From assembly GCA_963457665.1 (NCBI GenBank), contig OY735233.1:28884637-28948636 (forward strand): DNA of 64,000 nucleotides. The letters are read 5' to 3'. Origin of the DNA: Thysanoteuthis rhombus. Taxonomy: Eukaryota > Mollusca > Cephalopoda > Oegopsida > Thysanoteuthidae. Positions 3,265 to 58,200 of this stretch are shown piece by piece. The notes below the pieces were generated by a model, which worked only from the letters and a program-made list of their open reading frames with translations, had not been told where the DNA came from and made no database searches. The translations under genes were made by a program, and so were the position numbers. Each line of letters starts with the position of its first letter. Position 1 is the first letter of the stretch.

Positions 3265-3458
3265 TGCTTTAAAATTAATGTATATATTTTATTTAATTGC
3301 ACTGTGTATCGTCGACGATTTAATGCAGAAAATCTCCTTTGTAATCTCATGACGAAAATAATATCTCTTAAATAAACCAGAGTCAATCTGTTGAAAAGAC
3401 TGTATGAAAGGCGAATTTGTTTCTGTTCCTCATTTCGAATGGTACCGGGCTAGCCATC
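3265..3458 (-). other. NPF-1 last exon (3' UTR) with poly(A) signal
   Basis: On the minus strand a pyrimidine tract and acceptor TTTTTTTCCCAG ends at 3459, so the exon would start at 3458. AATAAA occurs at 3293-3288, giving an expected cleavage site near 3265-3275. It would be joined to the donor at 5120|5119 that follows the NPF-1 stop codon. It is entirely non-coding. The exon is inferred from splice and poly(A) consensus only. Confidence 0.55.
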
Positions 3459-3734
3459 CTGGGAAAAAAAGGAAATTAAACATTAATTAAACATTTTGGT
3501 CCAGAAAATTCAAATATTACTTTTTTCATTAAAGTTCGTCATTAGATCATACTCAAAGGCTTTGGATATCCCATGGTATAAGAAAAAAACAAAAAACCAA
3601 AAAAAACAAACTTGGAAGTAATAATTCATACTAGCAGTAATCCGAGGAAGTCTCACGGTTTAAATAAAAACAATCACCAAGCATTGAAGGTAAATTTGAC
3701 AATTGATGCTTTATTCATGATATACATGACCCCG

Positions 3735-3850
3735 ACAAGTAAAGTTCACACATGGTACTATGATATCTAATTCTGTGTAAAACATAAAACCAATTGTAAA
3801 GCTTACATGAATTGCGTTAACAGGTATTTGGAAATGAAAGACTAAAATGA
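3735..3850 (-). repeat. Dispersed repeat R1, inverted copy in NPF-1 intron 3
   Basis: Reverse-complemented, this reads a GTCATTTTAGTC motif, then TTTCCAAATACCTGTTAACG, CAATTCATGTAAG and ACACAGAATTAGATATCATA. The same order of blocks is found at 12130-12240 on the plus strand. Divergence is perhaps 10-20 percent by eye. Confidence 0.72.
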
Positions 3851-4130
3851 CATTGATTTAAGAAATATTTTAAATTTATTCAGTTTTTAAAGCAATAAAG
3901 CTTTCTACACAGACACAGACTCCCCCTCTCTCTGTCTATCTCTCTCACCATGTGAAACTATGAAATGATCAGAAATGACGATCTCAAAGAGCTCAGTGAT
4001 CCATTCCGTTTGTATATCATATTCTCTATGGGAATATGTACCTTAACCCAATATCACTTTCATAGGTGTTAAATTGTGGCAAGAAATCTTTACTCAGTCT
4101 ACAAGCAGGATATTAGATCGATAGACCTTG

Positions 4131-4132
<2 letters not shown>

Positions 4133-4177
<45 letters not shown>

Positions 4178-4196
4178 TTTTGTATATATATATATG

Positions 4197-4250
<54 letters not shown>
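4133..4250. repeat. (TA)n microsatellite, interrupted
   Basis: Two runs of TA dinucleotides separated by a short TG/TTTT-containing interruption near 4171-4198. It lies in intron 3 of NPF-1, so frames across it are not genes. Confidence 0.95.
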
Positions 4251-4256
<6 letters not shown>

Positions 4257-5129
4257 TTAAGAATCATTTCTTAAAAAAAGAAAAAAGTTTTTTCCAAAAA
4301 AATTAATTGATTCATTCAATTATTGTGTTTTCGTTTCTAATACAGTTTTAAATTCAGGCATAGATTAAGGAGTTTAAAATTTTAAATTGAAGCAAACACT
4401 TTCTTTAGTAGTATATACCGATAAAGCTTTAAACGGCATGAAACGTCATGGTGACATCTTTCGAAATTATTCCAAAAACAGTTGAAATCTCAAATAAAGT
4501 AATAACTTCTGGATTAATTTTCTAAAAAAGTCAGTGTTTGAAACTCTACAAACTTAATGTCTGTTTTTGTGACCCGAAACGTTTTTTTTCGAATAAAGGT
4601 GATTTGTAAACAGAATAAAACAATAATTTCATAATTTGCACTGTCTTTCTTCTTCTCTTTCTTCCTACTAAATTACATTTTGACGTTTGTATCTATCAAT
4701 CATTCTCTCTCTCTCTGTCCACTCTCTTCCTCTCTCTCTTTCCGCGTAGACTCCAGCGTAGCAATATGTACAGACGGTAGTTGTTATGTGTAATAATAGT
4801 ATAGATATTTTGATAATATAATGATAATAATGATCCGATAATTTCAGCATTGATTCAATATGAATCCATTTACAAATTCATATTCGCTCGTTACAGCGGA
4901 GGATTGTCGATAATTTGTAAGAGCTTTGAAAAAGATAGTAAGCCCTGTGATAAGTACAAAAAAATGACTTCTGCATATTTATAGTGCTGAGTAGGATGAT
5001 GTTCTCACAAAGCTTACATGTCTATGTGAAGGAGAGAATAAAGAAAAGATATTTGATGTATTTGTGTTGAACTAAGTAAAGGCATTGTCTTATTTTGTGT
5101 AATGCAAAATGATCCTTACCATATATTTT

Positions 5130-5618
5130 CTATGCGTCATCTGCCAGGGTTCTGTAAGAGTTTCTTTGTTTGAGGCTTCGTCCAAACCTGGGAAAAAATT
5201 AGTTCCATGTATTTCAATATCTCATGTTGTGGGTGTATTATTATAACAGAAAACGGATAGCTATTATCACAATCAGTTAACACGGGGAAATGTTGTTGGA
5301 AACTGACTTATATCCCATGATTGGTCCAGTTCTGCCAAACTGGTTTACGACCAATGCTATTTTTGTTCGTTTGCAAGCACCGTTAAATAAAAACAAATGG
5401 CAAGAAAATAGAGACGAATTCGATCATTTTAAAATTTTATTTCCTTTACGTATTACTCACCTAGGTCGGGCAGCGATAGCATAGTAGTCATTTAGGGCTT
5501 TTAAATAGTCTGAGAGTTCCCCAGGAATTTTGGGTGCGGCCAACAGGCTTTCTTGGCAAAAGATTTGTCCTGTGAACATAACGGCAACCAGAAGGATGGC
5601 AAAGACTGATTTTTGCAT
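5130..5618 (-). CDS. NPF-1: neuropeptide F / PYF-type prepropeptide (two coding exons)
   Basis: Predicted 71-residue secreted precursor of an NPY-superfamily neuropeptide, which acts extracellularly on G-protein-coupled NPF receptors (family knowledge). Coding exon 5618-5461 starts with MQKSVFAILLVAVMFTGQIF, a signal peptide probably cut after Cys21. A 33-residue peptide follows: QESLLAAPKIPGELS, then DYLKALNDYYAIAARP, with R-F after the splice. The Arg codon is split AG|G by an intron of about 270 bp (donor 5460-5459 GTGAG, acceptor at 5189-5188 after TTTTTTCCC). Exon 5187-5130 gives F-G-R-S, where Gly supplies the amide, then SLKQRNSYRTLADDA and TAG. The last nine residues, YAIAARPRF, differ from squid PYF (YAIVARPRF-amide) at one position. 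The start Met sits 22 nt into an exon with acceptor TTTATTTGCAG. Gln22 could become pyroglutamate. There is no sign of decay. It is transcribed away from NPF-2 and NPF-3. Confidence 0.92.
5190..5460 (-). other. NPF-1 intron 2 (phase 2, within the R-P-R|F codon)
   Basis: A short intron separates the peptide body from the FGR processing site. The same codon is split in NPF-2 and NPF-3, where the intron is 2525 and 758 bp long. Splitting NPY-family genes at the RxR|F codon is a classic feature of the family (established knowledge). Confidence 0.88.
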
Positions 5619-5812
5619 GGTTGCAGGTGATTAAATTTTCTGCAAATAAAATTCATGTAATTAGACAGAACTTCCTCATGGGGTTTAATCGGCTTGATGA
5701 AATCATATTTCAGATAGGAAATTATATGATGCTTGTAAAAGAAAGCAGTCATTGTAATGGAGATAGCGTAATCCAGGATTCATGACAGGCAGTATGAAAT
5801 TGAATTCAAGTG

Positions 5813-5813
<1 letters not shown>

Positions 5814-5875
<62 letters not shown>
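5814..5875. repeat. (GATA)n / (GA)n compound microsatellite
   Basis: About nine GATA units followed by about twelve GA units. It is located in NPF-1 intron 1, roughly 200 bp upstream of the coding exon. Confidence 0.96.
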
Positions 5876-5879
<4 letters not shown>

Positions 5880-8385
5880 GTACATGGGACTACACAACAA
5901 TTATGTATATATACGTATAGATAGATACAGATTAATTAAACCGATATTTGAGCAGGAGTTTTATGGCATTGCGGCAACAGAAAGATTGTGCTAATCATAG
6001 CGTTAACCATCCAAGGAGGTGGACTGTTTGTAATCTTGAAATCTTTACCGCGACTCAGTGTCTATTCCAAAGTCCAATAGTGAAATGAATAGATTCAAAC
6101 AGGGATAGATAAACAGGGAAGGATAAGGTGTTGATTGATATTGCTAAGAATGGATTGGGATAGATAAGTAGAGGGATAAAAGACCGGGATGTCAGACCGT
6201 TCTCATTGCCTCATGACAGCATTCAATCCACTGTATTAAACATTTATAAGAAACGAGAAAAGTATCATCTCGTAAGAACTCTTTGAAAATCAATTTTTTT
6301 CTCTTAATTACCGTACGTAAATTAATTCCAATCTGCCCGCCTTATTTGACCCAAGTTTCCAGATATGAACGATTGTGAATCGCTACTGATCATTATTGTA
6401 ACTTGCACGCCTTTTTCAATTATAGTGCTTGATTACGTCATAGGCAATTTCCTGTTTCCAGTTAATGAGTTCATAGCAATAAAACGTTTACACATTTTGA
6501 AAAGTATTGGCTGATTCATCTTGCCAATTATTCCTTTAAGTTCGTTTGTCGAAGACTTAGGCGCTTCGAAAAGATTGATCATTTTAACCAATAATCAGTT
6601 CAAGTAGAGAAACAGTCATCATAGTTGAATTCAATGTGTTTTACTGTTTTTAAGCAATTTTGTTGAATATATGTACGGATTGACTATTATTACTTGTTTT
6701 GATTATACTAGTATGTATTTTCTACGAGAGAAAATATGACATTAAGTCAGTTTCATGCAGGGACCCAAACACTTGTGTATGTGTGACCAGTTGCAAAAAG
6801 TTCCCACGCCCACATTTCACTGATAAAGCAGCCACTGGGGACCTACCACCTTGTTAATACAATGTAAAGGTACTGCCTCTGAGATGGATAAACAGGGACC
6901 AAGCACGCTTCATTTATGCCCTGTATCACTGGAAGTTGTGGAAAATTTGCTCAAATCTAAAAGGTGTTCAAGTGAATAAATAATGAAAATTCATTTTCGA
7001 AATAAGCCTTTTGTGGTAAAAAGACATGCAAAATGAAAGAAAAAATTGCCTGATTCGAAAATACCTTTGTGTTTTTGATTTTTGAGAAATTCTCTCACAT
7101 TAACGAAGCAGTTATCGTCAAAATTCTGAAATTGGTTATGACTAGCCATCATGATCAAAAAGTGAACAACTATGGTGTCAAATTTTGAAGTTGTGTAAAA
7201 AAAATTCTATCAAATAATAAATATGGTCAAAATCAATTCTATTTATGACATCACTGCCATTTTCCACTGGAAAACATTTAGAAATATCTATACTCTAGGA
7301 AATCTAGATGTTATTAGTAAACCCACCAGAAGGAGGGCCAAAAGTGTTCGAAAAAGTTTTTTCCCCCCCAAAACCCCAAACATTCTGGAAGGGGTCTAGC
7401 GGAGTACTGATGTCAATTTCTAAGTCCGTAGATAAAACGGAGCGCTGGAATACTCAAACGCATAAACAAACTCATGTACATATAACAAGAGGTTAGAACC
7501 CTTAGCCATCTTTGATGGCTATGGTTGTTCAATTTCAAATATAAAATGACCTATAACTAATGCATGGAAGGAAACTTTTTGAGTTTGTGAATATCAGCAG
7601 TGAAAAATAAATGTTGAAAATCGTGCAGTGAATTTATTCTTCGAAGTTCAGTTTAATTTTCCGCAAACAACAAGCTCTAGAAATACCTCTTACTATTATT
7701 ACAATTAATAGTACTATTACCACTACTATTTCTACTTCATTTTGAAACTCTTTGAAACAGGATACATGTTTAATTAGAAAAATTAGGCTCCTCCTCTCCT
7801 ATATCTTTGTTAAAAAGCTAGCTCTTCCTTTCCCGTTTTTCTCCCTCCTCTTTTTCTTTTATCACGGAGATTTGCGACTATTCAGACTCTTTCATGTTTA
7901 TTTTTTTTCAAATTTTTGTTCTTTGTTTATATTTTCATACATAGAAACAAGTTTCACTAGTTGCTAATTATTGGATATCGCTAAGAAGTCCCTTGCTAAA
8001 AAGTTTGTCACTAATTCTAGGTTGCTAGTAATTGAGCTAACCATATGGACAGATCTGGATATAAAGATGGTGGACGCCTAGTTGAACTTATGTTTCTCGT
8101 TTTTCGTATTTGAATAATGAGTTTCAACCATCTTTAAGAAAACATCGAAGTAGATTCAACGTGGCTCGTGGTGTATTTCTAGTGGCATTAAATTCTATGG
8201 CTTACTGATGCTTTCAAAGAGATAATAATGACTACCGTTCTCACTGCTTGTTAGAATGTTCAGAAAACTGCATTGTTCTTAATGCTGACGGAGAACGTAT
8301 TCACAAATAGTCGACTGTCTTAAACTCAACCTATGCAAAGAATCCGTACAACAACACGGTATTATTAATGATAATAACAACAACG

Positions 8386-8406
8386 ACAACGATAATAATA
8401 ATAATG

Positions 8407-8471
<65 letters not shown>
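8386..8471. repeat. (ATA)n microsatellite
   Basis: A trinucleotide array of AAT/ATA units with slightly irregular edges (AACAACGACAACGATAAT). It yields poly-Ile or poly-Asn frames that are not genes. Confidence 0.96.
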
Positions 8472-8472
<1 letters not shown>

Positions 8473-10532
8473 TTTTTTCCTGTTCTCACGTGGCTATGTT
8501 TGTCAGCGTAACCCAGCAAAAATGGCACAGTTGGCAGTTTATGAGTGATTCACTCACAAAATGCCCCAATTTGGAGAATAAAACAGATCCACGTGATTTT
8601 CAACTGCTGCATTATGTTTTGGGTGGTGGGTTTCAATTTACGATATAACTGTTAAGGTAAACTAGACCTTTATTTTGTATCCATCGGGTATGATGTTGAA
8701 ATAGTACATCGTGACTCTATGAGAGAACGTTTGTTATGATCCCATATTTTATGAAGTTGATCAGCCCATAATCTAATAGCACTCTTTTACGTTTATTTTT
8801 TTCACCTGACCTCATATTCTGATGACAATACCTAAAAAGTAAGGGGAAACTATTCACCCACTTTGGGATAATGCTGAACATTGTATTATATTCATTTGTA
8901 AATAACGAAAACAATAATTCGAAACAAAGGAAGTGACTTGACATTAAACATAATGATCACCGAAGGTGGCTTTCAAGTGAGTGTATTATGAATACATGTA
9001 ATTTGGTAAATAAAAATAACTGATTATTCATGGAAATCATGCTATCTGTTCATGTCTTGTGAGACCGACGTGATAACTTTGAAGTATACATACATATACA
9101 CTGATATATTCTAATCAAGTAAAGACCTAATATTTTAGTGCATAAGAGAGTGAGATAAATAGAGACATAGACAATGCAATGAAAGAGAAAAGAAGAAATT
9201 ACATTATCAGAAGAGAAACACACAGTAACAATTGAATTTCCTTTTCACAACATTAGTTATATCATGTCATTCTTCAATAAGAATGCAAAAAACAAAGAAA
9301 GAAAGTAAACTCAGAGAACCTGAATGAAAATATTGATCAAAATTTGTCACATAAAAGAATATCAGCAAATATGCTCATAGCTGAATAGACCCAATAATAG
9401 TATTAATACGTCAATATCTTGAATACGATTCGATTGTCTTTCGATTATCCAGTTTCATCCTAATTTATAACCAATAGTGCTTCTTGTTGCTTATATTGTC
9501 ATAATCAAAAACTGTATTACCCATTAAATTCAGCATTTCATTGGACCTGGAGAAGACCTTTTTTTTATGACATCAAATTACCGATTGTAAAACGCTCCAA
9601 TTACCATGACAGTTATGAAAAAACAACAAAAAACAAAACAAAAACGACTGCTCTATGAACATCATGTGCATTTGGAAACTGATTCATAGAGTTTCTGATT
9701 CGCATGAACGAACCATTGATGCCAATATAAAGTCTACAATTAATATGTCATACCATTACTGATGCACAGAAATGAAACTTGGATACTATATGATAACTGT
9801 CCAATAACTCCGTACAATTCAGCCAGGGCTATTATGAAGATTAAATAGGTTCATTACACCAGTAAAGAAAAGTGAATGGCAAAAGCAGACGTATAAAGCA
9901 CAGTGTTTATCAGAAGTCTTCTACGATGGTTGTCATTCCTTCGGAATTTACAATGATAGAACTGAAAGAATTTCTGTACGGTGAGCTGGTAGACGTAAAC
10001 TGACCTCTTGGACGTCCCAAGATGTTCTAGAGGGACACACGAAAAATGCTCGGAAATGTGTTTATTCCCTGGGCCAGTGGAAGAGGAAATATAGAGAAAC
10101 CGTTTGGGTTTTGAGGCATGAATATTCATGTAGCAACTTACTTAATGTTAATATAGATGAGTTGCATCCCTTAACATGACAGACAACGAATAAGTGAGTT
10201 CATGTGGCGTATTATTAATCTTATTTTTTGCAACTTTAAATGAAGATAAAAACTAACGATGACTTGTCGACGTCAACGCTTCCATTCATGCAAAAAAAAA
10301 CAAAATGTGTATTTATTAACCATTCTATTCATTTTTAAAATTATAAAGCTGCATTTTGCCACAGTTATTTAATGCATAAGACATATCTAAAAAATTAACG
10401 GAATATTTGTGATCGTGAGCAGATTATCTTCAGAAAATTATACCAATAAAATTTATGATATAATTTGAACAGGTGAAATAATATGAGATGATTAAAAATA
10501 CGAGATGCATTTGAAGAAGTTGTTTCCCTTAC

Positions 10533-10589
10533 CTGGCTGGCTGTATCTTTAAATGAAATGTTTCAAAGAATGGTCTCTCGTTGAATGCT
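10533..10589 (-). other. NPF-1 exon 1 (non-coding 5' UTR)
   Basis: The exon starts about 30 bp below the TATA element and ends at a strong donor, GCCAG|GTAAGGG (GT at 10532-10531). It contains no ATG in good context that opens a long frame. It pairs with the acceptor just above the NPF-1 start codon. The start point is approximate, taken from TATA spacing. Confidence 0.65.
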
Positions 10590-10608
10590 GCCCAAGCGAA
10601 TGCTACAA

Positions 10609-10619
10609 CGATATTTATA
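10609..10619 (-). promoter_or_regulatory. NPF-1 core promoter (TATA element)
   Basis: On the minus strand the sequence is TATAAATATCG. Exactly the same 11-mer stands 93 bp above the NPF-3 exon 1 donor, and TATATATATCG above the NPF-2 donor. The position relative to a short exon with a strong splice donor supports a real core promoter. Confidence 0.7.
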
Positions 10620-10655
10620 CACCAGTTACGCCGATGAGCTGTCAGATACAGCCAT

Positions 10656-23637: not shown

Positions 23638-24106
23638 TATTGTCTATTGTTTTACTTTTAGCCTGACAATCAAAGACTTGAAATGTTATGATTTGTGACA
23701 AGCAGCTCAGCACCAGGCAAATTATAAAGATGGCTGTCATAAATGAATAGAATTCTTTTTTGTTGTCATTTTTCACTTGATTACCTCAATTTGATTTTCG
23801 TGATTATTGCCTACCTTATGACCACATCATTAGAATGCGCCAATATCACTTGAAATCAAAGTTAGAGATATAATTTGAAACATTACTATTCGTGGATTTT
23901 ATCATCAATTAAAAAAAAACAAACACAAAAACATTGAGACAACGCAGTAATGTCGTTTTTTGCACTGATTACACTTTGAGTTTTGTAAAGTGGAATTAAA
24001 AGCTGTGATTGTTTATTTCACACTCGCAGTGATCATTCCTCTCTTAGATATACGTATCAGCTATAGAAAACAGTCGTATTGTACTTATAGCTTAGCCATT
24101 CATTTA

Positions 24107-24262
24107 ACTCTAACCCTAACCCTAATCCTAAACCCTAACACTAACCCTAACCCTAAACCCTAACCCTAAACCCTAACACTAACCCTAACCCTAACCTTAA
24201 CCCTAACCCTAACCCTAAATCCTAACCCTAACCCTAACCTTGACCCTAACCCTAACCCTAAA
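24107..24262. repeat. Interstitial telomeric repeat (CCCTAA)n
   Basis: About 156 bp of CCCTAA units, the complement of the animal telomere repeat TTAGGG, with CCCTAAA, CACTAAC, CCTTAAC and CTTGAC variants. It lies about 1 kb upstream of the NPF-2 promoter. The degeneracy argues for an old internal tract, not a chromosome end. Confidence 0.95.
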
Positions 24263-27572: not shown

Positions 27573-30304
27573 ATGCAGAAAAATCTGATTACACTTTTGC
27601 TGATAGTGCTTCTAGCTGTGTGTTATGTTCATTGTGGAGAAGAGAAACTGGCGACTCCAAAAATCCCAGAGGAAATCAAAGATTACTTGAAAGCCCTCAA
27701 TGATTACTATGCTATAGTTGGTCGACCCAGGTGAGTTTAACATGTAAATTTTCATGCTGCCAATGCAGCTGCTTGGAGGCAAATATCATTCTGGATATGT
27801 TATCAGCGATTTCACTCTTCTCTTCACAGTATTTTCAATAATTTGTTCTTCATTCTTCTTCCTTTTTTTTCTTTTCATCCAAAAGATCATTTATATTTTC
27901 AAGTTTTATTCCTCTCCCTTCTTTTTCTTACCTTCTTTCTCCTTTTTTAGTTATTTCATTCATTTTCATACCTTATTATTTTCCTTTGGGTTTCTGGTTT
28001 TTTTAAAAAATTTTCTCATTCTTTTCAGTATACACACGTTCTTCCCATTTTTTTAAAACTCTGTTTTATCAATTTTTTCAATTTGTTTTTCATCTTTTGT
28101 TTTTGTATTCTTCCTTCACTTATTGTTCATTCATTCCTTATGTTCCGTCCTGTTTTACATTGTTAATCATTCTTTTAGTTTTCTTTTTCGTATTGTTTGT
28201 ATATTTTTGCTATTTTCATTTTCTTCATTTTGCTTTCCCTTTTTCATTATTTAGCATTATTCAATTTTCTTTCAATTGTTTAGAATACCATACCCTTTGA
28301 ATTGTCAAAGGTACCCAAGAATTTTATAAAAACCTCTATTCCATTAAGGACGCAGAAAAATGAACAGGAAGCACAAGCTGGGAGTATTCAATTCAAGAAA
28401 TTTCCATTAGATACTCTTCAGGAAGTGAAACAAGCCATCAAACACACAAAGAAAGGAAAGCCTCTCTGAACTTGATAACATCACCATCATCTATTCAAAG
28501 AAACTCTAAAAGTTATCAATAGGAGACAAACTATTCTTTTCAACTTATGCCTCAGACAAAGTAACGTTCCAGAAGAGTGGAACACTACAATTATAATGCT
28601 ATTATACAAAAAAGGGAACCCGAAAGACCTTAACAACTACAGGCTAATAGGTCTACTCCTTTGCATCTACAAACTCTTCACCGAAGTGGTCAACAACCTA
28701 ATCACCAAAATTCCAGATAAAAACCAACCACCAGAATAAGAGCTACTCAACCATCAATCATCTCCATTCAGTAAAACAGCTAAGAATGTAGAATACAACT
28801 AGCTGTAACATTTGTTGACTTCAGTTCAGTGGAAATCCCCGAAGACATTGTCGTTATAATACTACAAGGTGTACACATCGTAAATGTCGAAATACTGCAA
28901 CATTTGCCGACTCAAAAGCTCCTTCATTTGGCTATTTAAAGACTTTATACTAGAAAAAGGAATGAGCCAAGATGATGCCAGCTCACCCAAACTCTTCCCA
29001 GCCTGCCTTGAGATGATCTTCCGAAACCTAAAATGGGAACACAAGAGAATCAGGAATAATAGCGAATAGGCAAATAACCTCAGATTCGCAGATGATATCG
29101 CCTTAGCTTCTCACGGTCTTAAAATGATATTTGATTGACTAAATGAAGCAAGCAAGAAAGTTGGCCTCCAAAACAAAACAAATGTCATGTACAACAAACA
29201 TGTTTGAGATAAAGACCCAACAATCAAAATATAAGATGCAGAGCTGAAAATCCCATCAAGAAAACCCCATTAGCCCTAAAAAGAAGGGTATACAGCCAAT
29301 GCATCCTCTTGATAGCCACTTATGAAGCTGAAACATGAAACCTAACAAAAAGATTGACCTACAAACTGAGAACCATGCAACGTGCACATGTGAGAACTGT
29401 GCTTAACTCATTAATTATTCATGCTTAATCTCATGGAGAGTTCATAAAACAGCACAGTATATCAGATTAAAGATAGGTGTCTGCAATATCATAGAAACTG
29501 GTAGAAAACTCAAATGGCAATGGGTTGGACATATTGCAATAATGTCAGACAACCGCTGGATATCACGTGGATCCCCAGAAATTGTGGCTGACAGAAAGTA
29601 AGATGGCGTTGCAAGCTAAACAACTGTAAAAAGTGCTGTCTCTGCGATGCCAATGATAGAGAGATATGGTGAATCTTGGGAAAGATCTATGTCCTACGAC
29701 GGCCGCTGAAACGCTGCTGCTGATGAAAATTTTGTATTACTTGAAAAAAAATCAATACTCATTTTGTCATATTTAATCTAATTTAACTGCGTTTATTTAT
29801 TTCTATTTTTTGTTTTTGTTTTTTGTACATTTTTCTGATGCTTTTTTTTTCTTCTTCTGTATTAATTGGTTTATAACGCAAAAACTTTATTTCAGTTACC
29901 TTCTGGCTATGATGTAACACCTGCCAATATCGTAGTAACCGACATGTAAAGTCATTAAAGTCATACAAAAATGTTCACATCGGAAAAGACGTAGAAATTT
30001 TATGTTCTATTAACCCCCTTAAGCATTATGTTTGACATTTCACTCTATTTTCCCTTTCCCACTTTTCCCACTATTCTGGAAACATAAATAAAAATGTATG
30101 GAGATGTGTGTCTGTGTGTGCGTTTATTATCAGGAAACACACCCACCCACACACACACCCATATATATATATATATATATATATATGATTGAATATATAA
30201 AAAAAAAACGAATTGATATTTGATATTTGTAAGAACGCTATTCCGATTATTCTAGGTTTGGCCGCAGTATCAGCCAGTGGTCTTCGTTCGGATATCAAAG
30301 ATAG
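27573..30304 (+). CDS. NPF-2: neuropeptide F / PYF-type prepropeptide (two coding exons)
   Basis: Predicted 68-residue secreted neuropeptide precursor. Coding exon 27573-27730 starts MQKNLITLLLIVLLAVCYVH, a clear signal peptide with likely cleavage after Cys21. It continues GEEKLATPKIPEEIK and DYLKALNDYYAIVGRP. The Arg codon is split AG|G by a 2525-bp intron (donor CCCAG|GTGAGT, acceptor TTCTAG|GTTTG at 30254-30255). Exon 30256-30304 gives F-G-R-SISQWSSFGYQR and TAG. The mature peptide would have 33 residues with C-terminus YAIVGRPRF-amide, one residue from squid PYF. The coding exon has the same length as in NPF-1 (158 nt) and shares P-K-I-P and DYLKALNDYYAI with it. The peptide probably signals through NPF receptors, by family. 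A 1.4 kb RTE copy sits in intron 2. No decay is seen. A donor ACG|GTAAG at 30322 follows 17 nt after the stop. Confidence 0.92.
27740..28300 (+). other. Pyrimidine-rich stretch in NPF-2 intron 2
   Basis: Roughly 27820-28280 is strongly T plus C biased (runs such as TTCTTCTTCCTTTTTTTTC). It lies immediately downstream of the coding exon and upstream of the RTE insertion. It gives spurious Phe/Ser-rich frames of up to 100 codons. It might be simple-sequence drift or an ancient poly-pyrimidine repeat. Confidence 0.6.
28330..29722 (+). mobile_element. RTE-type LINE, decayed copy within NPF-2 intron 2
   Basis: Parallels 18100-19640 of the long copy, with large internal deletions: [19 protein letters not shown] (about 28595-28650), a degenerate AGFRRSYSTM site, GMSQDDASSPKLFPACLEMI (28962-29030), FADDIA (about 29088), then CNKH..., and the C-terminal KWQWVGHIA stretch (29511-29537). 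It ends GCTGCTGCTGATGA (29714-29727). The donor and acceptor of the host intron are intact. It is inserted in the same sense as NPF-2. Confidence 0.85.
30160..30186. repeat. (TA)n microsatellite
   Basis: About 13 TA units, 70 bp upstream of the NPF-2 second coding exon. Confidence 0.93.
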
Positions 30305-31319: not shown

Positions 31320-32590
31320 ACTACTCATAACATTTGCATTCACCAAAACGCGTCCTCTTTGTCCCCCCTGCAATTGCACTGAGAGCAGGTTCTTGTGCAC
31401 TTCGCATCCAAGGGGAAACATCCTGAGTGAGGGACAGGGTGGTCCAAATGGGAAGCAGCTTGTCATCCTCTTCATTCCAGCCATCATTATTGGGGTCATT
31501 AACAGGCATCATGCACGTCAAAGCCTTATTCGTTGAGGGAATTCTCTCCTCATCTCTTGTCTTCAGTGATAACAACTTACATTTGCACGAGATTAACATG
31601 GTCGATCTCATTTGACTCAGAAACAGACTTAGATGCCATTTCCCTCAGCCTTGACGATGTTTTGAAATGGAGTGTCCGTGATAGCTGCAAATACCTAAAT
31701 GAGAAATGACTCCTTGTTCATCAAATTGCATCAATATCGTTTATCCTTAGACCTTTGAAGGAGACGGTCTGTCCAATCTAGTGAATAATGCATGTTGTTG
31801 CGATAGTGGTCAGGGAGATTATTATGGTTGCTTCTCAAGCTTTGAAGGGAATCCAGATTTCTGCAACCGAATTCTGAATCTTGATGTGATGAAAATCACA
31901 TCTGTGCCTCCAGTACGCAACAATTTTTGAGGGCACGGAGGAGATGCACTAAGGTAGGGATTTTAGCTTTCTTGTGGTCGTATTGATCCATTGATGAACT
32001 GTTTCCAACATTGTTGACTTGATTACTCACTATGATGTCGACATCTTCGTCATTTGGGGACTGACCTTTTTTTATCTTCTGTGACAGGAATAGGACTAAT
32101 TCCTTCTCGTTGTCAACATTCGCCAGAGATATTATCCCGATGTCCAGGGATTTTAGATAAAACAGATACACATTATTGGGTGCCTGTTCCCAATAAGCCC
32201 CCTGTGCCCTCTTTGATTGACAGAGCACGATACTGGCCCCAAATAATGTCTACTCTTGTCGACTAACTGTATGACAGAATACGTCTTCGAGATGTAAATT
32301 AAAGGTCTTTCCTCGGACAGCTGTACTAGGGAGTGAGTATTCAAGTACTCCATCGTCAATGAAGTCATAAACATCAGGAGCAACTAATTCCTTGTTGACG
32401 GAAATGATGCTACTGGTACTGACTTCTATGATGTATTGCAACATGTCTAACAGTACATGAGTTGATCGACCTCCAAATGACAATACCAGTGGATCTGCAG
32501 AAGATTCACGACGAAAGAACTCTTCCAAATCCACTAATTGGTACCGAAAATAAAAACTTTGTATCGATTTAAAATGAAACGAAAACATTG
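31320..32590 (-). pseudogene. Decayed copy of an unnamed multi-copy metazoan protein family
   Basis: Minus-strand fragments from several frames fall into one order: a start segment DLEEFFRRESSADPLVLSF (about 32530), TLVDIIWGQYRALSIKEGT (32260-32200), NVDNEKELVLFLSQKIKKG (32127-32070), DQYDHKKAKIPTLVHLL (31990-31940, expected DHEEADTR-hHL), then after a gap DGWNEEDDKLLPIWTTL (31490-31435, expected WGW...L-x-P-x-W-T-T-L), and a Cys-cluster remnant CEVHKNLLSVQLQGGQRGR (about 31410-31355). I know this as a recurrent repeat-like protein family in mollusc and cnidarian genomes, without a named function. Stops and frameshifts show that the copy is dead. It sits in the NPF-2/NPF-3 interval. Confidence 0.6.
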
Positions 32591-40400: not shown

Positions 40401-41935
40401 ACGCCTCTTCAAGAATTGTGTATTAATATGAAATAAGAAGGTATGTATATTGAACAGAAAGTAAAGTTCCATTTGGACATTATAGTAATATTGTAAGTAG
40501 AACACTCTTCTAAAATCCTTTAACTGTTTTTCCTCAAAACCTCTCTTTTCAAATCTTCCTCCTATGTCCATTAGGAATGCATTCCAACGGACATTTTATA
40601 ACATGACAGACAGACATACAGAGAAACACACTTTGTGGCATCTCACTTTTATATATACAGATTTTTTTTATAGAGTATTTAATCAGAACAGAAAATGTCA
40701 CTTAGTTCTTTAATGCATTAGAATATTTTGTGGCCTCGAAATATCACTAATATTTGGGATTTAGTTGAAACAATAAAGTCCAGTTGGGCGCTGTGCAACA
40801 TTTCACATTTCTGCGTAATCAAATTCTAATCCAAAAAGAACTTTTTCGTCGGTACAAAACGAAAGAAAAATATCTGTAGGTCTGAAAGTGTTAGTTCTAT
40901 TGACATTATTTTCCCCTTCTTAACCTCACTGATACTTCAATCTATATCTCTTTTTTTTCATATAATTCAATTCATCCGTGTATAGATTTCATTATATGAC
41001 TCGACGTTAAGATATCATGACAGACATGGTCAGCGAAAAGTGACACACGTAAATCTCTATTTTTACTCAATCTATTAGAGTAATCATCTTTTCTTTCCCT
41101 TGCTAACCGGTTCAAACTCATATCTTATTTCTTATTGAATGGTCTCAATTATATTTCTCCAACCTTGCGTTCTGCTTTCATGTCACTAGATTTATTTTCG
41201 TACATATAAGAAGAACATTGCACTCAGAATCATAAGTCATAGTACACACTTATAATCCAAATTTGTTTATCCGTTATTTCACAGCAGCTTTTAGAATTTT
41301 TCTCTGTTATAATGTTGTTTATTGTCAAACTAATCCCTTTATTTCTTCGTACTTTTTTATAATTACAGAATCATCTAGTCCCTCAGCGCTGCCCAGAGAG
41401 ATTCTTTTGTATTACAAAACTAACATATATCTGAAAGAAAATGATTGAAAAGTGTCACTAAATAATCATTGTAAAGGTAAAATAAAGATCGTATAACATT
41501 TCTCAAAATGTATTTGTTTTCTCATTCAATGAATGCTTCTAGAATTCGGTAAAAATGAATAGGCAACATGACAATTTTGATCTCTTAGTTTTGAAACATT
41601 TAGGGCGACAGGAAGTATTTGTACGATGTAGAACAGAGGCTCATCCACCGAAGAAATGACAAATATGATCTAGCTTCATTGGGGGTTCACTATGTTACTC
41701 ATTCATGGAAATGTTGGACGAGTAAGTGTTGTTAATTTTATTTATACATACTCCTTATGTATATCCAGAAGTAGTTTTCGTTTGAAATAGTAAACCACCT
41801 TCCACTGACCAAGTCAAAATATAACAAAAGATATTGTTTTTTTATAAAAAAAAGCCAGACATATGTTTACATTTGCATGTGCGTGTGTGTGTAAGAATAT
41901 GTTTATGAAGCTCTATGGTACATGATACCAATAAA
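40401..41935. other. No recognised gene; transposon-tail-like patch at 40585-40670
   Basis: ACATGACAGACAGACATACA ... TTTTATATATACAGATTT (about 40598-40664) resembles the 3' tails of short interspersed elements frequent in invertebrates. The rest shows no recognisable motif. Confidence 0.4.
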
Positions 41936-42415
41936 GACTGAAGCTTTATGGTGAACGGTTCCAATAAAGACTGAAGCTTTATGGTGAACGGTTCCAATAA
42001 AGACTGAAGCTTTATGGTAAACGGTTCCAATAGAGACTGAAGCTTTATGGTGAACAGTTCCAATAAAGACTGAAGCTTTATGGTGATCAGTTCCAGTAAA
42101 GACTGAAGCTTTATGATAAATAGTTCCAATAAAGACTGAAGCTTTATGGTGAACGATTCCAATAAAGACTGAAGCTTTATGGTGAACGGTTCCAATAAAG
42201 ACTGAAGCTTTATGGTAAACGGTTCCAATAGAGACTGAAGCTTTATGGTGAACAGTTCCAATAAAGACTGAAGCTTTATGGTGATCAGTTCCAGTAAAGA
42301 CTGAAGCTTTATGATAAATAGTTCCAATAAAGACTGAAGCTTTATGGTAAACAGTTCTAATAAAGACTGAAGCTTTATGGTGAATGGTTCTAATAAAGAC
42401 TGAAGCTTTGCTATT
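41936..42415. repeat. 33-bp tandem repeat, about 14.5 copies, with higher-order structure
   Basis: The unit is GACTGAAGCTTTATGGTGAA followed by CGGTTCCAATAAA, 33 bp long. Because 33 is a multiple of three, the minus strand stays open (42429-41842) and encodes 11-residue units LQSLLEPFTIK. Unit variants recur in the same order (F-I-I-K, L-I-T-I-K, L-F-T-I-K, P-F-T-I-K, P-F-T-I-K), giving a six-unit (198 bp) higher-order period. That suggests a block duplication. There is no start context, signal peptide or flanking exon, so I do not treat the frame as a gene. Confidence 0.93.

Positions 42416-50708: not shown

Positions 50709-50798
<90 letters not shown>
50709..50798. repeat. (TA)n microsatellite
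   Basis: About 45 TA units. 50800-51175 shows no recognised feature other than being the upstream flank of NPF-3. Confidence 0.96.
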
Positions 50799-50800
<2 letters not shown>

Positions 50801-51175
50801 TAGAGATTGTGAGTGGAAAAGAGAATTTACCTCCGGGGGTGTTTTGTTTGAAATGTCAAATTTTCCTATATAAGAATTAATAGCAGTGCGAAGTGAAAAT
50901 GATTTCCTCTCTTCTAAATTTGACAGAAAGTGATAAGCGAAATGTGTGTCCCTTGAGATGTTTTCCGTGCCAGAGTTCGACAAGGATTATTCATTTACTA
51001 ACCCATTCTTTGGAGACCGAAAGTACTTTTATGTATTTTGTTTTCACTTGACCAAACCGTTGCCGCATGCAGAAAATACATGCAACCAAATTCAAATAGC
51101 CACCATTTTGTCTTGTGTATAAAAATGTAAATCTCATTACAATTGGTTTATCTGGACAATGGCTTCGGGATTGCA

Positions 51176-51183
51176 CGACGTCA
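51176..51183 (+). promoter_or_regulatory. CRE-like site upstream of NPF-3
   Basis: CGACGTCA differs at one base from the CREB/ATF site TGACGTCA. It lies about 77 bp upstream of the TATA element. Confidence 0.45.
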
Positions 51184-51259
51184 AATTACACCTACCTACA
51201 GACAATTGATTTAAAAATAAACACATGTCTTTGGCAGCTGACAATAAACGTTAGAGACT

Positions 51260-51270
51260 TATAAATATCG
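51260..51270 (+). promoter_or_regulatory. NPF-3 core promoter (TATA element)
   Basis: TATAAATATCG is identical over 11 bases to the NPF-1 promoter element, and likewise stands just above a short exon with a strong donor. Confidence 0.7.
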
Positions 51271-51289
51271 GTAAGTCATCGTCGAGAGG

Positions 51290-51352
51290 TGTTACTCCAA
51301 GAGAAACCATTCCTTTGAGACCTACCAGAAGATTCCAGTCCTGAAGAGACAG
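51290..51352 (+). other. NPF-3 exon 1 (non-coding 5' UTR)
   Basis: From about 30 bp past the TATA element to GAGACAG|GTAAGTG (GT at 51353). It would join the acceptor at 54990-54991, 19 nt before the NPF-3 start codon. It contains no ATG. Confidence 0.65.
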
Positions 51353-54300
51353 GTAAGTGAAGTTCCACGTTCTGTTGCTAAGAAAACAAGTATACTTCTA
51401 CCAAACTTTTTAATTTCTCTATTTCTCATTTAATTCTTTTTGTAAAATTTGTGCTTTAAGACGCTACAAATTTTGATACTTGATAATGGAATTTTGTCTC
51501 AAATATTATGTTCTACAATCTATCCCAGAATGACAATCTAATATTACAAATAAAATATCACAGAGAAATTTAGAATTATTTGGGACCTAAATCTCCCTCA
51601 ATATATTTCATCAGTAATAAATTATATTGATTACTTGAGATTATACTGTGTATCTCTGTAGTTTAGGGAAATTGAATCGATTATACAAAAATTTAAGAAA
51701 CAAGAACCATTAATTTAACGATGTATCCTCGATCTATACGTCCATATATGTGATTTCTGATTTCAAAGGGATTCTAAACAACGCAGTAGTAGCATTACTA
51801 GTTGTTCTAGTAGTTGCAGAAGGAGGGAAAGAATATGGGGATGGTTCATCCGAAATTCTGGCAACTAATGACACGATTAATAAGTTGAAATTAAAGTCAG
51901 TGTACCATTTTTATCGATATTTTCTTCTGAGGTCTTAGTGTATCGTTATCTTATTTGATAAGTGGACTTAAAATAAGTTTGTATATCATTTTCATCTACA
52001 AAATTATATCGAAATAGAAATGTTTAACCGGTTTTAGCAGTATTTTCAGACTGCTTTATCTATTACGAACGACACTTGGCAACATTGTAAAAAATCAAAT
52101 GCTTGGTACAATATCTATTGATCTGAACAGATTTAATGTCACACCTTTTTATGACCCCAAACCTTTTATGTCATGATCGCAGCAGGTAAATAAAACACCC
52201 CCTTCCTCTCTCTGTTGTTCATCGTAACTGGGACGGACTGACCAAAAAAGGCCTAGCGTGTCGACACATCTAAAAATCATAATTTTCAGACATTCATTCA
52301 TCTATGTCTGATAAGCTCCTGTGAGGAAAAGCCACTGTTTTTCATGTTTAAGAACTACATGAGAGATAAATATATTCTTTAAGAAAAAATGTCGTTCATT
52401 TGCTTTGCTGTTATTTTCGACTTGACTTTTTCAATTCAAGAGTTACCTTTTGCACAATCGTCTCCCACTGGTAAAAAACAATCAGCGTTGTCAATGGCTA
52501 AACATGGATCGTGGCAAATATATTCCAACTTTGTAGAGAGTCTACTTTGGACCTTATATGTTGTTAATGAATTAAATTGATAAATATTTCCATCTCAACT
52601 AAATCAGCATTGAATCTCGAGGTGATTGAGTAATTGAGTCAATGAAAGCATATCATGTATACAATTAGTAGGTGAGAAAAGCCTATTAAATATGTGAATC
52701 TGTATACATTTTGTAGATGTGTAAAAATCTTCGCTACTTGCCAAAGTATTTGAAACATGAAATGTAATGTGATTCTACACACCGTGATTCAATTCTGGAT
52801 TATCACCACGAATCATATCTAGTATCGGTTGTCCATGGCTGCATTTCTCAAATACACTGAAAGGGACATTCTCTTGCATCCGGTTATTAACTTTATAGTA
52901 CAAGAATTTTGACCAGACGTTCAAAAACCAAAATTGAAGAACTTATTTGTTTGGGGTTTCTTGATTTTATGCTTTATACATTCTTTCGATGTAGAACTTC
53001 TTCTATTTGTCACCTTGTGACATCAAAATGACATAAAAAACGCCGAGTTTAACGGTAACCTTACTATTAATCTCGGCGTTTGTTACCAGATTAGCCTTGT
53101 GCATTTCCAAATCAATATTCGACGAACATTCAGCATCCACAGTTGTTCTTCGATCTTGGTATCGGTCAGAAATATAACCAGAAGATCTCGGTCATCACGC
53201 ACTTTTGATCAATATTTACATTCATTAGACCCAGAAAAACGTTCTCATTGTATAGGCTCTAGATATTATAATCGAAATTCACTTAGCTTAGCATTTGGTG
53301 CACAGTAAGGATCAAAATCATTGCACAGAAGAAATATCCCATTCTACTAGATTGCTAACAATTACTCTCCAGACAGACCACTGTTTTGGCATTATTGTAT
53401 TTGTGTAGAGGAAAATTTAGACTACAGTAGTAGCGGTGATGATGATGGAATCATACGTGATATTCATTTTTTAATACGTTTTTGTCTGAGAAGTTATCAC
53501 TCTATCATGAAAATTTTCAGCTTTTGCAAATTAGTCTTGTGTTCTGTAGAATATCACCATGAAATTTAACATTGCGTTTCATGTTATAGAGGGCACAAGA
53601 ACTTGTCTTAGTGCAGTGCAAGCTATTGTCTTTGTATTCTTCATAATAGATAGCGTGTCAAAGTTGTTCCAATACGATCGGTGAGTCATAAACTATGCAG
53701 TGAAATATAAACTATCACAGTTACACACGTAAATACTTCAATAATGATAAAAAACGGTTTTATTTTACAAAGAAATTATGAATTTTTCTTCTTAATCTAC
53801 TTCTTTGTCTATGCACTAAATTCAGTGGTGAATATTAATCATATCGATCAAACATAATACAATGAGAGTAATATACACAGATGAGATAAACATTCAGCTA
53901 ATAACTAGGAGGCAGGCCTTGGCCTTATTGATTCATCCTCGTATTGTACTGTATTATTTGCTCTTATAGTTCCAGTACTCTCGTAAAAATGAATACTGAT
54001 GAGCAGTTCCTGCTCAATATATCAGGTATTTACGTAGCATCAAAGCAATCTCAGCAATCACTTGTCGAATAGTGTGTTCAGGGAAACCTTATAATCACAT
54101 TGTTCATGCTCATATTTCATGTTTTCAATAAAAAATCCGATTACAGACGACCTGGCAATTTTACAGTCATTTCTAAGTACTAAGTTTCCTCACTGACAGG
54201 ATATCAATATATCCACAAATTTCAACGTTACCAAGTTCTTTATGGTTTATCATTGCTGGGAACTTTTAGATCATTTCTAGCAAAGTTACCAGATGTAGTG

Positions 54301-54991
54301 AATGAGCCATTATTTTTTCCGTGTTAGTTGCGTCGTCTGCTAAGTGTCTTCTGAATTATTATGATGTTATAATCAAAAGTTATATTTGAAATCAAATTCT
54401 TTACTTTGTTATACTACCGCAAACAAGTCGTAGGTTATTTCATATAGTTTTCGGACTTTTTTGGTTTTTCATCATTTTTGTTCACCACAATGTTTTGACC
54501 AATATACTGTTAACTTTTCTGAAAAAAAAAAACAACAACAAAATGTCAAAATTGTACTTAAAACAGCAGAGATGAAAAAATTATGTCTAGAATAGTTAAA
54601 ATACTTGATCAGGACATGAGGAAACAACAACAGTGAGGGTTACGTAGGTTTAGTCAAGCCAGATATTATTGCTTTTCGTGTATATAAACAGTCTCCCAGA
54701 ACAGAAATCACAGATTGTTTATATTAAATTTTATATATTTATTTTTTCTTCTTCATAAGATTGTAGAATTTATTTTCCAAAAATCTCTAAAAGAAAGAAG
54801 AATTAATACACCAAAAACTTCCCTAATCATTTTGAATAACAGTAAAGCATATTTTTAAGCGTGGTTTGAAACAGTTTATCGCTGAAAGATCTTTCTGTTT
54901 ATTGCAGTAATTATTTCACACTTACAATTTTATAATAGATGTTGTCTGGAAAAATGAACGACAAAATTCTCCATTTTTTGTGTAATTGCAG
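51353..54991 (+). other. NPF-3 intron 1
   Basis: A 3.6 kb 5' UTR intron. It is AT-rich with several short frames (51750-51938, 52389-52580, 53099-53308) that lack splice context or recognisable motifs. No transposon motif is seen by eye. Confidence 0.55.
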
Positions 54992-55010
54992 CTATCAAAA
55001 TCTAAGCACC

Positions 55011-55269
55011 ATGCTGAATCCAATGCTGACCATCTTTTTTATCACTGTCATGTTAGCTGCGAATGTTTCTGGACAGAATGGATTGTTGGCTCCACCAAAC
55101 CGGCCTGGCGATTTGAAAAATCCAGGGGTTCTCAACAATTACTTAAAAGCCCTTAATGAATACCAAGATGCTCTTAGTCGTCCAAGGTAATCACTACTTG
55201 CTATACTATCTATGAGGCAGTCTGTAGCTTTATTGATCCGTTCTCTCATTATACAGCATTAATTGCTCT

Positions 55270-55311
<42 letters not shown>

Positions 55312-57205
55312 ACAGTTTTTTTCCAAATTTATTCCTGATTATTCGATTGATACGTTCTTGAGATATTTCTCCATCTTGCTGATGATATGTGGGTCATTCC
55401 CTATGAAACAGCCGTGAATGAATTCCCCCGATAAGTGTTTTCATTTTCTATGAAAATTTTCACCATACCTATCTATCTATCTATCTATGTGCATTAGAAA
55501 CCGTTAACTAAAATAGCCAATATTGGCCTCTTGAGTTTTTAAGTTGGTCTGGCTGGCTATATATTCATTCAGGCCGCGCCAATGAAGATAGAGGGATGAA
55601 AATTTACACATTTTCTCCTTTTTGTTTTGTTTAACCTTCCATAAATAGGTGTACAGTGTGGAGTTCAATTTGCAATGTGAGTTTATGCTAAATTGGCCTT
55701 TTAGTTTGTTTCCAGCAGTGTTCAACCCTTTTTTAAAATTCAGACATTTTAGTGATCACTGCCCAACAAGAGGCAAGAAGTAACTCATTTATCATCATTT
55801 TTTCGAATTTTGCATTTGATCATCCCCAGCACTGCATACAGCCAAAGATGTTGGTCACATGACGGTTTCTACTGACTGACTGACCAAACATGTTTCCGTT
55901 ATCATTCGAAGGATTTTAATCTTTATGTCTGATTCATATTTCAGGTTTGGCCGAAGTCTCAACAAAAGACTTTCATTCAATGAATTTTCTAACAATCTTC
56001 CAGAACAAATCGGTAAGATATAACTCTATTTCCTGACAAATATTTACGTACACACCACGTGTTCTATTCCATTCTATCTTAATTCTTTTTTTCTTTCAAA
56101 CATATGGTGCTTTCCTCTTTTGGGTTCCGAGGTGACTTTTAAAACGTATTATGCTTTGCAGGTTTTACTGCAGTTCATGAGGTGTGTTGCATCACTGTTT
56201 GAGACACTTTTCTGGTCTTTTATAGGGAAGTAAGGTTGATTCTTCAGCGGGTTAAACGCAAAAAGTTCCACGGAAAGTCTCATATTGCCAAACGCTTATC
56301 CGACATGAATATAACTCTTTTAGTGTCTGCAACCATTAATTGAGCGATAAACAAGAAGCAAGTTTTGAGAGTTTCTTTTCTGAGTCAGTGGTATTGTCAA
56401 AGACCAAGGGGCAGTGAACTATGGGTTGTATTGGATAGGCAGACACATAAATTAATTAACAAAATAGGCATGGGTGTACATGCATATAAATATGTAGAGT
56501 TTTTGTTTTATTTTATCCGTTTTTTTCCTTTTCTCTCGCTTCGAAACACGTCTGATGTTCCTGTTTATCAGAGTGCAAATGTTGTTAGTCTACAAATAGT
56601 TATTTTGATTACAAAACTTTTTTTCTCACTGACCAACATGTCAAATCTTCCTGGCTGTTAGATTTCAATCAAGAACAGAATTCTGATGAGGTGTTCACGT
56701 ACCACTGAAAAGGAAATCACAGATGGAAAGGGGGTACTGAGGGGAGAACTGCTGATAAGGGATAGACCTCTGAAATATAAACTGCAGATGAGACGGGTCC
56801 ACTGAAAGGGAAATTTGGATCACAGTTAGGAACAATTTTAATCTATAAGCCCAGGCCCTTGAACGCTCATGACGTTGATTAACATTAATCAGGAGAATTG
56901 ATTAAAAAAATATGTATATCTGCTCTTTGATACAAAAAAAAAGGAAAATATCATTGAAAGGGAAACCGAGGAAATTGATTAAAAATACTAAATGACGTCA
57001 ATTAACTGGGGACAATTGATTAAGAAAAAGAATAAATGACACACAAAGTGAGTTTCAGGGATAGATATTGGACACATCTAAAAACGTTTGTAATCAAGGC
57101 TGCCTTTGGTAAATAAGCCACATAGAAACAATTTATATATATGATTACAAGAATCATTGTTTGATTATGTTTGCAGTACACCCACATAGATGTGTTTTAT
57201 CTCAA

Positions 57206-57283
<78 letters not shown>

Positions 57284-57397
57284 TTGTGTTGGGTATATTC
57301 TACCGATCAAATAAAGGTCTAGATTTAATTTTGTACGAGTGAGTGCGTCTGTGAAATCCGTATATTTTAGTGTACAGTCTCTCTCTCTCTCACTCAC

Positions 57398-57435
<38 letters not shown>

Positions 57436-58044
57436 ACACAATCACATATTTTTATGTATGTACGTAGTGGTCACACACAATATCTCATTAGTTATTAAAG
57501 CATACTTTTATATGGTTTTACTTGTGTGTTCGTTTCTATATGCTCCATGAATATGATTTTACTCTAGGATGTTTTATTCAAATGTTTTAGTCAAACTCTG
57601 AATAAGTTTCAGGACTATAGACCAACTTCTTCCCTTTTCACAGCTCTCCAAAGATCATAATATTTTGGGGGTAACGAAGATTCAAAGTTTTTCATCAATC
57701 TCATATGCTGCTATAGGTATGAATAGAGTATAGCAATGTACATAAATATGAATGAATTGAAAAATGAGAAGCTGACAAAGAATAATGAAATCTAATAATG
57801 TTCGTCAACTTTCATGCTTGGGCATGACTTTCTATAATAATGATGTTGGCATATTATTCAAGTTCTTTATTTCCTCGATATACTTTATGTCTATGTAGAA
57901 ATTTTACATGATAGCAAAAGTAATCACTTCGGTTTCTGATTTAAGCTTAGACATTTCGAGAACATTTTTCTCTGTTGATTTTCATGACGTGTCAAAATGG
58001 TGTTTGCCTTTCTATTGATATCTGATTTTTTTCTTTCAGACTAA
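55011..58044 (+). CDS. NPF-3: long-form neuropeptide F prepropeptide (three coding exons)
   Basis: Predicted 82-residue secreted precursor. Exon 55011-55186 encodes the signal peptide MLNPMLTIFFITVMLAANVS (cleavage probably after Gly21), then QNGLLAPPNRPGDLKNPG and VLNNYLKALNEYQDALSRP. The Arg codon is split AG|G. Exon 55945-56012 continues F-G-R-SLNKRLSFNEFSNNLPEQI, and exon 58040-58044 supplies one Asp and TAA. The predicted peptide has 39 residues, ends DALSRPRF-amide, and carries the APPNRP proline-rich N-terminus and L-x-x-Y-L-x-A-L-N-E-Y helix typical of invertebrate NPF. Acceptors are TTTGTGTAATTGCAG, TCATATTTCAG and TTTTTTCTTTCAG, and donors AAG|GTAATC and TCG|GTAAGA. The second dibasic, NKR, would release a C-terminal flanking peptide. 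An ATG upstream at 54939 lies in intron 1, so the start at 55011 is preferred. There is no decay, and it is probably the orthologue of other molluscan NPFs. Confidence 0.93.
55271..55311. repeat. (CTAT)n microsatellite
   Basis: About ten units in NPF-3 intron 2. A shorter tract of the same unit is at 55467-55488. Confidence 0.95.
55500..55840 (+). repeat. Dispersed repeat R2, longest copy, in NPF-3 intron 2
   Basis: The left block (AATAGCCAATATTGGCCTCT ... GCTGGCTATATATTCAT) matches 45510-45610. The right block (GAGTTCAATTTGCAATGTGA ... TTTATGCTAAATTGG ... ACTGCCCAA) matches 34226-34340. The two blocks are one repeat here and are found separately elsewhere. Confidence 0.72.
57207..57281. repeat. 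(CA)n / (TA)n compound microsatellite
   Basis: About 17 CA units followed by about 20 TA units. Confidence 0.96.
57378..57433. repeat. (CT)n microsatellite
   Basis: CT units with ACTCA and TAT interruptions. Confidence 0.94.
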
Positions 58045-58200
58045 TTGAACATCAAGAGAAAATGACAGTCAAGAAAATCCCAAACACTAGGAAAACGAAA
58101 AGCCTCGTGCCCAGCGACATTTTTTCTGAAACGCTTTAATTCATCCGAATGTTTAACTTTTATTCAACTCATTAGAAAAAATAAATAAGATTACCTTCAC
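58045..58200 (+). other. NPF-3 3' UTR with poly(A) signal
   Basis: The sequence after the stop is unique and ends with AATAAATAAG at about 58180-58189. Cleavage is expected near 58200. This is almost exactly where the opposite-strand open frame below ends. Confidence 0.6.

Follow-up and report, generated by a model that had tools for sequence, protein, structure and literature searches.

Gene structures in the window

The 64,000-bp stretch of genomic DNA analysed here (the window, C38:28884637-28948636) was found to contain three neuropeptide F (NPF) genes, NPF-1, NPF-2 and NPF-3, all with intact frames and standard splice sites. These genes form part of a cluster of six NPF loci on the same contig, and one member of the cluster, located outside the window, encodes the exact sequence of the squid peptide PYF. 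The exons within the window, as read from the sequence, are listed below in window coordinates. A slash marks a splice boundary, and the outer ends of the two putative terminal exons are those given in a preliminary description of this DNA.

5461..5618, minus strand: NPF-1 (G2, second of the six genes, short class), first coding exon, 158 nt; signal peptide and mature peptide up to ...YAIAARPR
5130..5187, minus strand: NPF-1, second coding exon, (R)FGRSLKQRNSYRTLADDA-stop; donor-like ATG/GTAAGG after the stop
3265..3458, minus strand: NPF-1, putative 3' untranslated exon; acceptor TTTTTCCCAG/GATGG; AATAAA near 3290
27573..27730, plus strand: NPF-2 (G3, third of the six genes, short class), first coding exon, 158 nt; up to ...YAIVGRPR
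30256..30304, plus strand: NPF-2, second coding exon, (R)FGRSISQWSSFGYQR-stop; likely donor 30321/30322
55011..55186, plus strand: NPF-3 (G4, fourth of the six genes, long class), first coding exon, 176 nt; divergent end ...YQDALSRPRF
55945..56012, plus strand: NPF-3, second coding exon, (R)FGRSLNKRLSFNEFSNNLPEQI; donor ATCG/GTAAG
58040..58200, plus strand: NPF-3, putative last exon; acceptor TTTCAG/ACTAA, leading to ...EQID-stop; AATAAA near 58180

The spliced proteins of all three genes scored above the curated cut-off (28.7 bits) of the Pfam model PF00159 (Hormone_3), with 36.0 bits for NPF-1, 46.1 bits for NPF-2 and 33.5 bits for NPF-3, the last score being taken on a version without the last splice. 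When exon 2 of NPF-3 is left unspliced at its donor, the frame continues to a stop at 56023. In each of the three genes, coding exon 1 ends with AG/ and exon 2 starts with /G TTY GG, placing a phase-2 intron (AG/G) in the second Arg of RPRF. The preliminary description had reported three complete, undecayed NPF-family genes, NPF-1 on the minus strand and NPF-2 and NPF-3 on the plus strand, each with an intron inside an Arg codon. The intact frames, the splice sites and the Pfam scores bore this out, and strands and intron were confirmed at the positions reported. Its outer limits, 3265 and 58200, agree with plausible last exons carrying AATAAA, as judged from the sequence alone.

A cluster of six NPF genes

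After 100 kb of flanking DNA had been added to the window (164-kb region), models were built for six NPF loci on C38, spanning 112.8 kb from the first to the last (coding start to stop). The window edges exclude one gene on the left and two on the right.

C38:28856737-28855819, minus strand: G1, long class, ...YAIVGRPRF; left of the window
C38:28959074-28959972, plus strand: G5, short class, ...YAIVARPRF; 10.4 kb beyond the window
C38:28968642-28963980, minus strand: G6, long class, ...YAIVGRPRF; right of the window

The three-gene cluster proposed earlier is thus a real paralogue cluster of mixed orientation, but the count is six, not three. All six genes have intact frames, GT-AG splice sites and, visible by eye as a putative signal peptide, a hydrophobic N-terminal stretch of some 21 residues. 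The phase-2 intron in the second Arg of RPRF is present in 6/6 genes (AG/G or AG/A), at the position described in PMC8536682 as conserved in bilaterian NPF/NPY (neuropeptide Y) genes. The C-terminal arrangement of RxRF/Y, Gly and a basic residue was found as RPRFGR in every gene, and the amidation site as Gly-Arg-Ser. In addition, exon 1 alone of G1, G3, G5 and G6 exceeded the PF00159 cut-off. The Pfam match, the C-terminal arrangement and the intron place the window genes in the NPY/NPF family.

The whole genome (2,731,506,558 bases) was then covered by searches that score the best candidates only, and a very diverged copy could escape them. As protein queries, G5 and G6 each found 6/6 loci and G4 found 5/6 (G3 was missed), and the sole match away from C38 was on C46, at an E-value (E) of 7.97 with the G6 query. 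The Pfam model detected 4/6 loci by exon matches at E<=0.001, three of them outside the window. A helix-plus-RPR pattern, composed only after the genes were known, gave 6 matches in the 164-kb DNA and 2 in total over 30 order-1 Markov shuffles of it, and an explanation by chance motifs was rejected on these counts.

Long and short classes

The three long genes (G1, NPF-3 and G6) have a coding exon 1 of 176 nt, and the three short genes (NPF-1, NPF-2 and G5) one of 158 nt. In the alignment, the 18-nt difference appears as a single six-residue gap in the proline arm, which is complete in the long class. With the signal peptide taken to end after residue 21, a reading by eye, mature peptides of 39 residues (long) and 33 residues (short) are predicted. 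One deletion event would most simply account for the short class. In a maximum-likelihood tree of 13 peptides, G2-G5 were set against the rest with support of 76/80, and the order of duplication was not resolved by this tree. NPF-3 is without the Tyr-Tyr that is present at the corresponding place in the other five precursors, and ends with SRPRF.

Divergence and integrity of the copies

Differences between the copies were counted by codon position. For the helix and C-terminal core (24 codons, 15 gene pairs, 360 comparisons), 72, 58 and 202 differences were observed at positions 1, 2 and 3, respectively. The corresponding counts were 190, 86 and 201 for the signal peptides (330 codon comparisons) and 109, 77 and 110 for the C-terminal flanks (189 codon comparisons). 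By the method of Nei and Gojobori (NG86), the synonymous divergence (dS) was 0.62-1.96 in 9 pairs and undefined in 6/15, and the nonsynonymous divergence (dN) in those 9 was 0.06-0.38. In all 9/15 pairs with estimable dS, dN was lower than dS. The copies look old, with purifying selection on the peptide, and look like neither haplotypes nor fresh duplicates.

An assembly artefact was among the objections named in the preliminary description; it would take the form of uncollapsed haplotypes or a misjoin. The evidence does come from a single assembly, but the sequences diverge in a way that speaks against such an origin. Haplotype duplication was rejected because 202 of the 360 core third positions differ and because, when the 164 kb are compared with themselves by blastn (E<=1e-3), the matches that link gene neighbourhoods (within 1 kb) are limited to exons or one non-coding repeat. 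No N was found in the window or in the ten flanking pieces. We consider an artefact of this kind extremely improbable.

The extra copies might otherwise be redundant, in decay or silent. As this would predict, the signal peptides and the C-terminal flanks are strongly diverged, and frameshifted NPF exon copies are described in abalone (PMC8536682). Set against these points are the intact frames with GT-AG splice sites in 6/6 genes, and the core third positions, which have changed far more than the first and second. Furthermore, a tblastn search of the 164-kb region with the six proteins yielded 51 matches, 4 of which lay outside the gene models (E 0.015-0.54; the best overlaps NPF-1 exon 2), so that no clear decayed copy was recognized in this region. 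Copies of this redundant, decaying or silent kind are highly unlikely on this evidence.

The non-coding repeat is located at 55729-55889 in the NPF-3 intron, with kin in the intron of G6 and downstream of exon 2 in G1. These stretches of about 160 bp are 75% alike and share the same orientation relative to the gene. A reading as a common control element was rejected, as 40/40 scored of 5445 candidates in a genome search match, on many contigs, which identifies a dispersed repeat.

G5 and the squid peptide PYF

PYF (YAIVARPRFamide) was described from squid brain (Loligo vulgaris) in 1992 (Smart et al., as cited in PMC6389622 and PMC4208409), and a 2019 review offered two explanations for it, an artefact of extraction or an origin from a precursor yet unknown (PMC6389622). 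G5 encodes YAIVARPRF-GR, with all nine PYF residues identical and Gly-Arg following. Among the six genes, YAIVARPRF with an amidation site was found in G5 only, and not in NPF-1, NPF-2, NPF-3, G1 or G6. The canonical gene of the same genome, G6, has Gly where PYF has Ala. Gly also occupies this position in all six long mollusc NPFs of Table 5 in PMC4208409 (YAIVGRPRF in Lymnaea, Idiosepius, Lottia and Crassostrea; YSIMGRPRF in Aplysia; YAIMGRTRF in Helix), and Haliotis NPF likewise ends with YAIVGRPRF (PMC8536682). Because G5 is an exact match and the long NPFs carry Gly for Ala, the source of PYF is most likely the G5 paralogue and not the long NPF, making G5 a strong candidate for the missing precursor of PYF.

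A dedicated paralogue as the origin of PYF had been suggested in the preliminary description. This part of the proposal is plausible through the exact match of G5, but the decisive gene lies outside the window. The ground then given, that the short sisters are one residue away from PYF, is true of NPF-1 (YAIAARPRF) and NPF-2 (YAIVGRPRF), but is no evidence by itself, because the NPFs of Lymnaea, Lottia, Crassostrea, Idiosepius and Haliotis (YAIVGRPRF) are equally close and the NPF-2 ending is identical to theirs. As candidates for PYF itself, NPF-1 and NPF-2 were rejected for the one residue by which each differs.

PYF could also be a mere N-terminally truncated form of the canonical long NPF, generated by degradation, as an extraction artefact or by a cut at Tyr-Tyr, and the cluster would then be irrelevant. 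A precedent is known in locust, in which YSQVARPRFamide is a truncated form of the long NPF ending ...DRYYSQVARPRF (PMC3061863), an extraction artefact is one of the two options considered in PMC6389622, and Tyr-Tyr is present in 5/6 precursors of the cluster. Truncation, however, cannot turn Gly to Ala, and Gly is the residue in the canonical gene and in the five published mollusc NPFs just named. An origin from the long NPF is for this reason unlikely. Truncation of G5 itself may take place, but it belongs to the explanation favoured here.

Within the literature searched, YAIVARPRF was found in one paper, as Loligo PYF, and the text search returned neither the G1 string REYMKALNEYYAIV, the G5 string YLKALNEYYAIVARPRF nor YAIAARPRF; subscription papers were outside its scope, and an earlier description is possible there. 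A neuropeptidome of Sepia officinalis reportedly exists among those papers.

Peptide fold and receptors

Structures were predicted by AlphaFold with the six paralogues as alignment. One 18-residue helix was obtained for both the long G6 (predicted local distance difference test, pLDDT, 79.3; predicted template modelling score, pTM, 0.48) and the short G5 (pLDDT 77.2, pTM 0.39). The G6 model gave 4 matches in the PDB at E<=10 and none at E<=0.001. The best of these was 7x9c_P, a receptor-bound pancreatic polypeptide (template modelling score, TM, 0.72; E 2.5), the fourth was receptor-bound NPY, and the other two were chains of a KRas-bound miniprotein. The G5 model gave 1 match, outside the NPY family. 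A sequence comparison of G6 returned a solved neuropeptide F at E 4.8e-5. These results are compatible with a short class that has lost the arm folding back on the helix, but do not prove it.

For abalone NPF, N-terminal 18-residue, C-terminal 21-residue and C-terminal 9-residue fragments are described as inactive on the receptor Hdh-NPFR (PMC8536682). As the 9- and 21-residue C-terminal pieces are inactive, the short-armed peptides may by analogy be inactive at the NPF receptor or need another receptor. In Platynereis, NPY-4 (...SRPRFamide), which derives from an NPF-like precursor, activates a receptor whose clade is sister to the FMRFamide type-1 receptors (PMC8557429). NPF-3 resembles this peptide in its SRPRF end, the part that was compared, and the likeness offers a receptor lead, not a test.

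Comparison with known NPF genes

As in the NPFs of Idiosepius, Lottia, Lymnaea, Aplysia, Helix, Crassostrea and Haliotis, one amidated peptide ending in RxRF, with a proline arm and a helix segment, is encoded by each gene. The Haliotis gene shares the phase-2 intron in the second Arg (PMC8536682), and the NPF of Idiosepius paradoxus, as given in PMC4208409 Table 5, is contained letter for letter in G6. The present system differs from these molluscan NPFs in having six genes, three of them without six arm residues, and in the SRPRF end of NPF-3. The amidation site described for Aplysia is GKR, in contrast to Gly-Arg-Ser in 6/6 genes here.

Molluscs had been said in the preliminary description to carry often a single NPF, but exceptions are published. 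In abalone, two tandem NPF genes with the same intron position lie on one scaffold within 45.9 kb; both encode an identical precursor and are accompanied by frameshifted exon copies (PMC8536682), whereas the six genes of the present cluster encode six different peptides. In oyster, two additional NPY-like sequences are mentioned, as a personal communication cited in PMC4208409. The NPF repertoire found here exceeds those described in these sources for other molluscs, namely one gene, two tandem genes (abalone), or NPF plus two NPY-like sequences (oyster).

Other features of the window and the genome

A telomere-like array of about 25 copies of TAACCC is located at 24105-24261, in the interior of a 46.7-Mb contig. 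At 41906-42409, a 33-bp minisatellite of 15 copies leaves the minus strand open for 195 codons. Nine other open reading frames (ORFs) of the window, picked by eye out of 26, gave a sole Pfam match above the cut-off; this match, Colipase-like, lies on the minisatellite just described, read on the minus strand, and was taken as spurious. Downstream of NPF-2, at 31321-32588 on the minus strand, ORFs are protein-like by eye, and the three that were tried gave no Pfam match above the cut-off. The ORF at 61393-61779 has a weak GIY-YIG match below the cut-off (E 0.0016) and is, we presume, perhaps a retroelement relic. Rfam at gathering thresholds detected nothing in the window.

Elsewhere in the genome, C6:27327457-27327482 encodes CFWTTCPIG-GKR behind a signal-like start, in a 54-codon frame without recognisable neurophysin, and the locus contains N. 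CFWTTCPIG is listed as Sepia sepiatocin, and CFWTSCPIG as octopus octopressin, in PMC7181382. This nonapeptide was used to place the host, which is very probably a decapodiform.

Proposed origin and biological meaning

We favour, with a probability of roughly 0.8, an old six-gene NPF array in a decapodiform cephalopod, with an arm-shortened class and with G5 as the most likely source of PYF. The gene structures, the cluster, the deletion and the exact PYF match are present in the genome. With respect to expression, processing, receptors and the order of duplication, we infer the following. Each gene would encode a secreted prepropeptide consisting of a signal peptide, a proline-containing arm, a helix, RPRF, and Gly-Arg for cleavage and C-terminal amidation. 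G6 would make the canonical squid NPF, and duplication would have given rise to a diverged branch including NPF-3, with full arm and SRPRF end, and the short class of NPF-1, NPF-2 and G5, in which the proline arm would have become six residues shorter, most simply once. PYF would be produced from G5 by trimming of the 33-residue amidated peptide at Tyr-Tyr, or as a fragment thereof. The short peptides probably retain the helix and the receptor-binding RPRFamide end; as much of the fold-back arm is gone, their expected target would be a receptor subtype different from the NPF receptor that requires the arm.

Several observations weigh against this interpretation. The structure matches were not significant (best E 2.5 for the long peptide; no NPY-family match for the short one). 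In the tree, the short genes were grouped at a support of only 46/0, and the argument for their single origin is the common deletion. The dS values of NPF-3 against NPF-2 and NPF-1 are modest (0.62 and 1.00, respectively), and not every copy is demonstrably ancient. The orthology of the Loligo PYF gene to G5 is based on nine identical residues. Finally, the residue just before YAIVARPRF in G5 is not basic, and the nonapeptide is not a conventional processing product; a free nonapeptide would therefore need a cut at Tyr-Tyr, as in locust, or represent an extraction fragment. G5 agrees with Loligo vulgaris PYF in the nine residues, which Gly-Arg follows in the gene, but differs in predicting a 33-residue peptide, from which the nonapeptide would have to be released by a non-basic cut. 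The earlier link of the short genes to the nonapeptide was overstated: they encode no nonapeptide with cleavage sites at both ends, and the PYF part of their predicted 33-residue product lies after Tyr-Tyr, with no basic residue immediately in front.

The family itself is known; the six-gene cluster, the shortened subclass and the exact PYF gene are what is added. If the genome is oegopsid and Loligo PYF comes from the same gene, this gene would predate the split between the two, about 100 million years ago (PMC13076209). It is conceivable, as a tentative extension to which we give less than even odds, that decapodiforms evolved a separate NPF subsystem of arm-deleted paralogues, including PYF, which arose before oceanic and coastal squids separated about 100 million years ago, have been retained ever since and use non-canonical receptors. 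The cluster represents a natural deletion series for probing the role of the proline arm. With an intact-frame gene for the exact PYF sequence beside a canonical NPF gene unable to yield it, the question of the PYF precursor is now directly testable.

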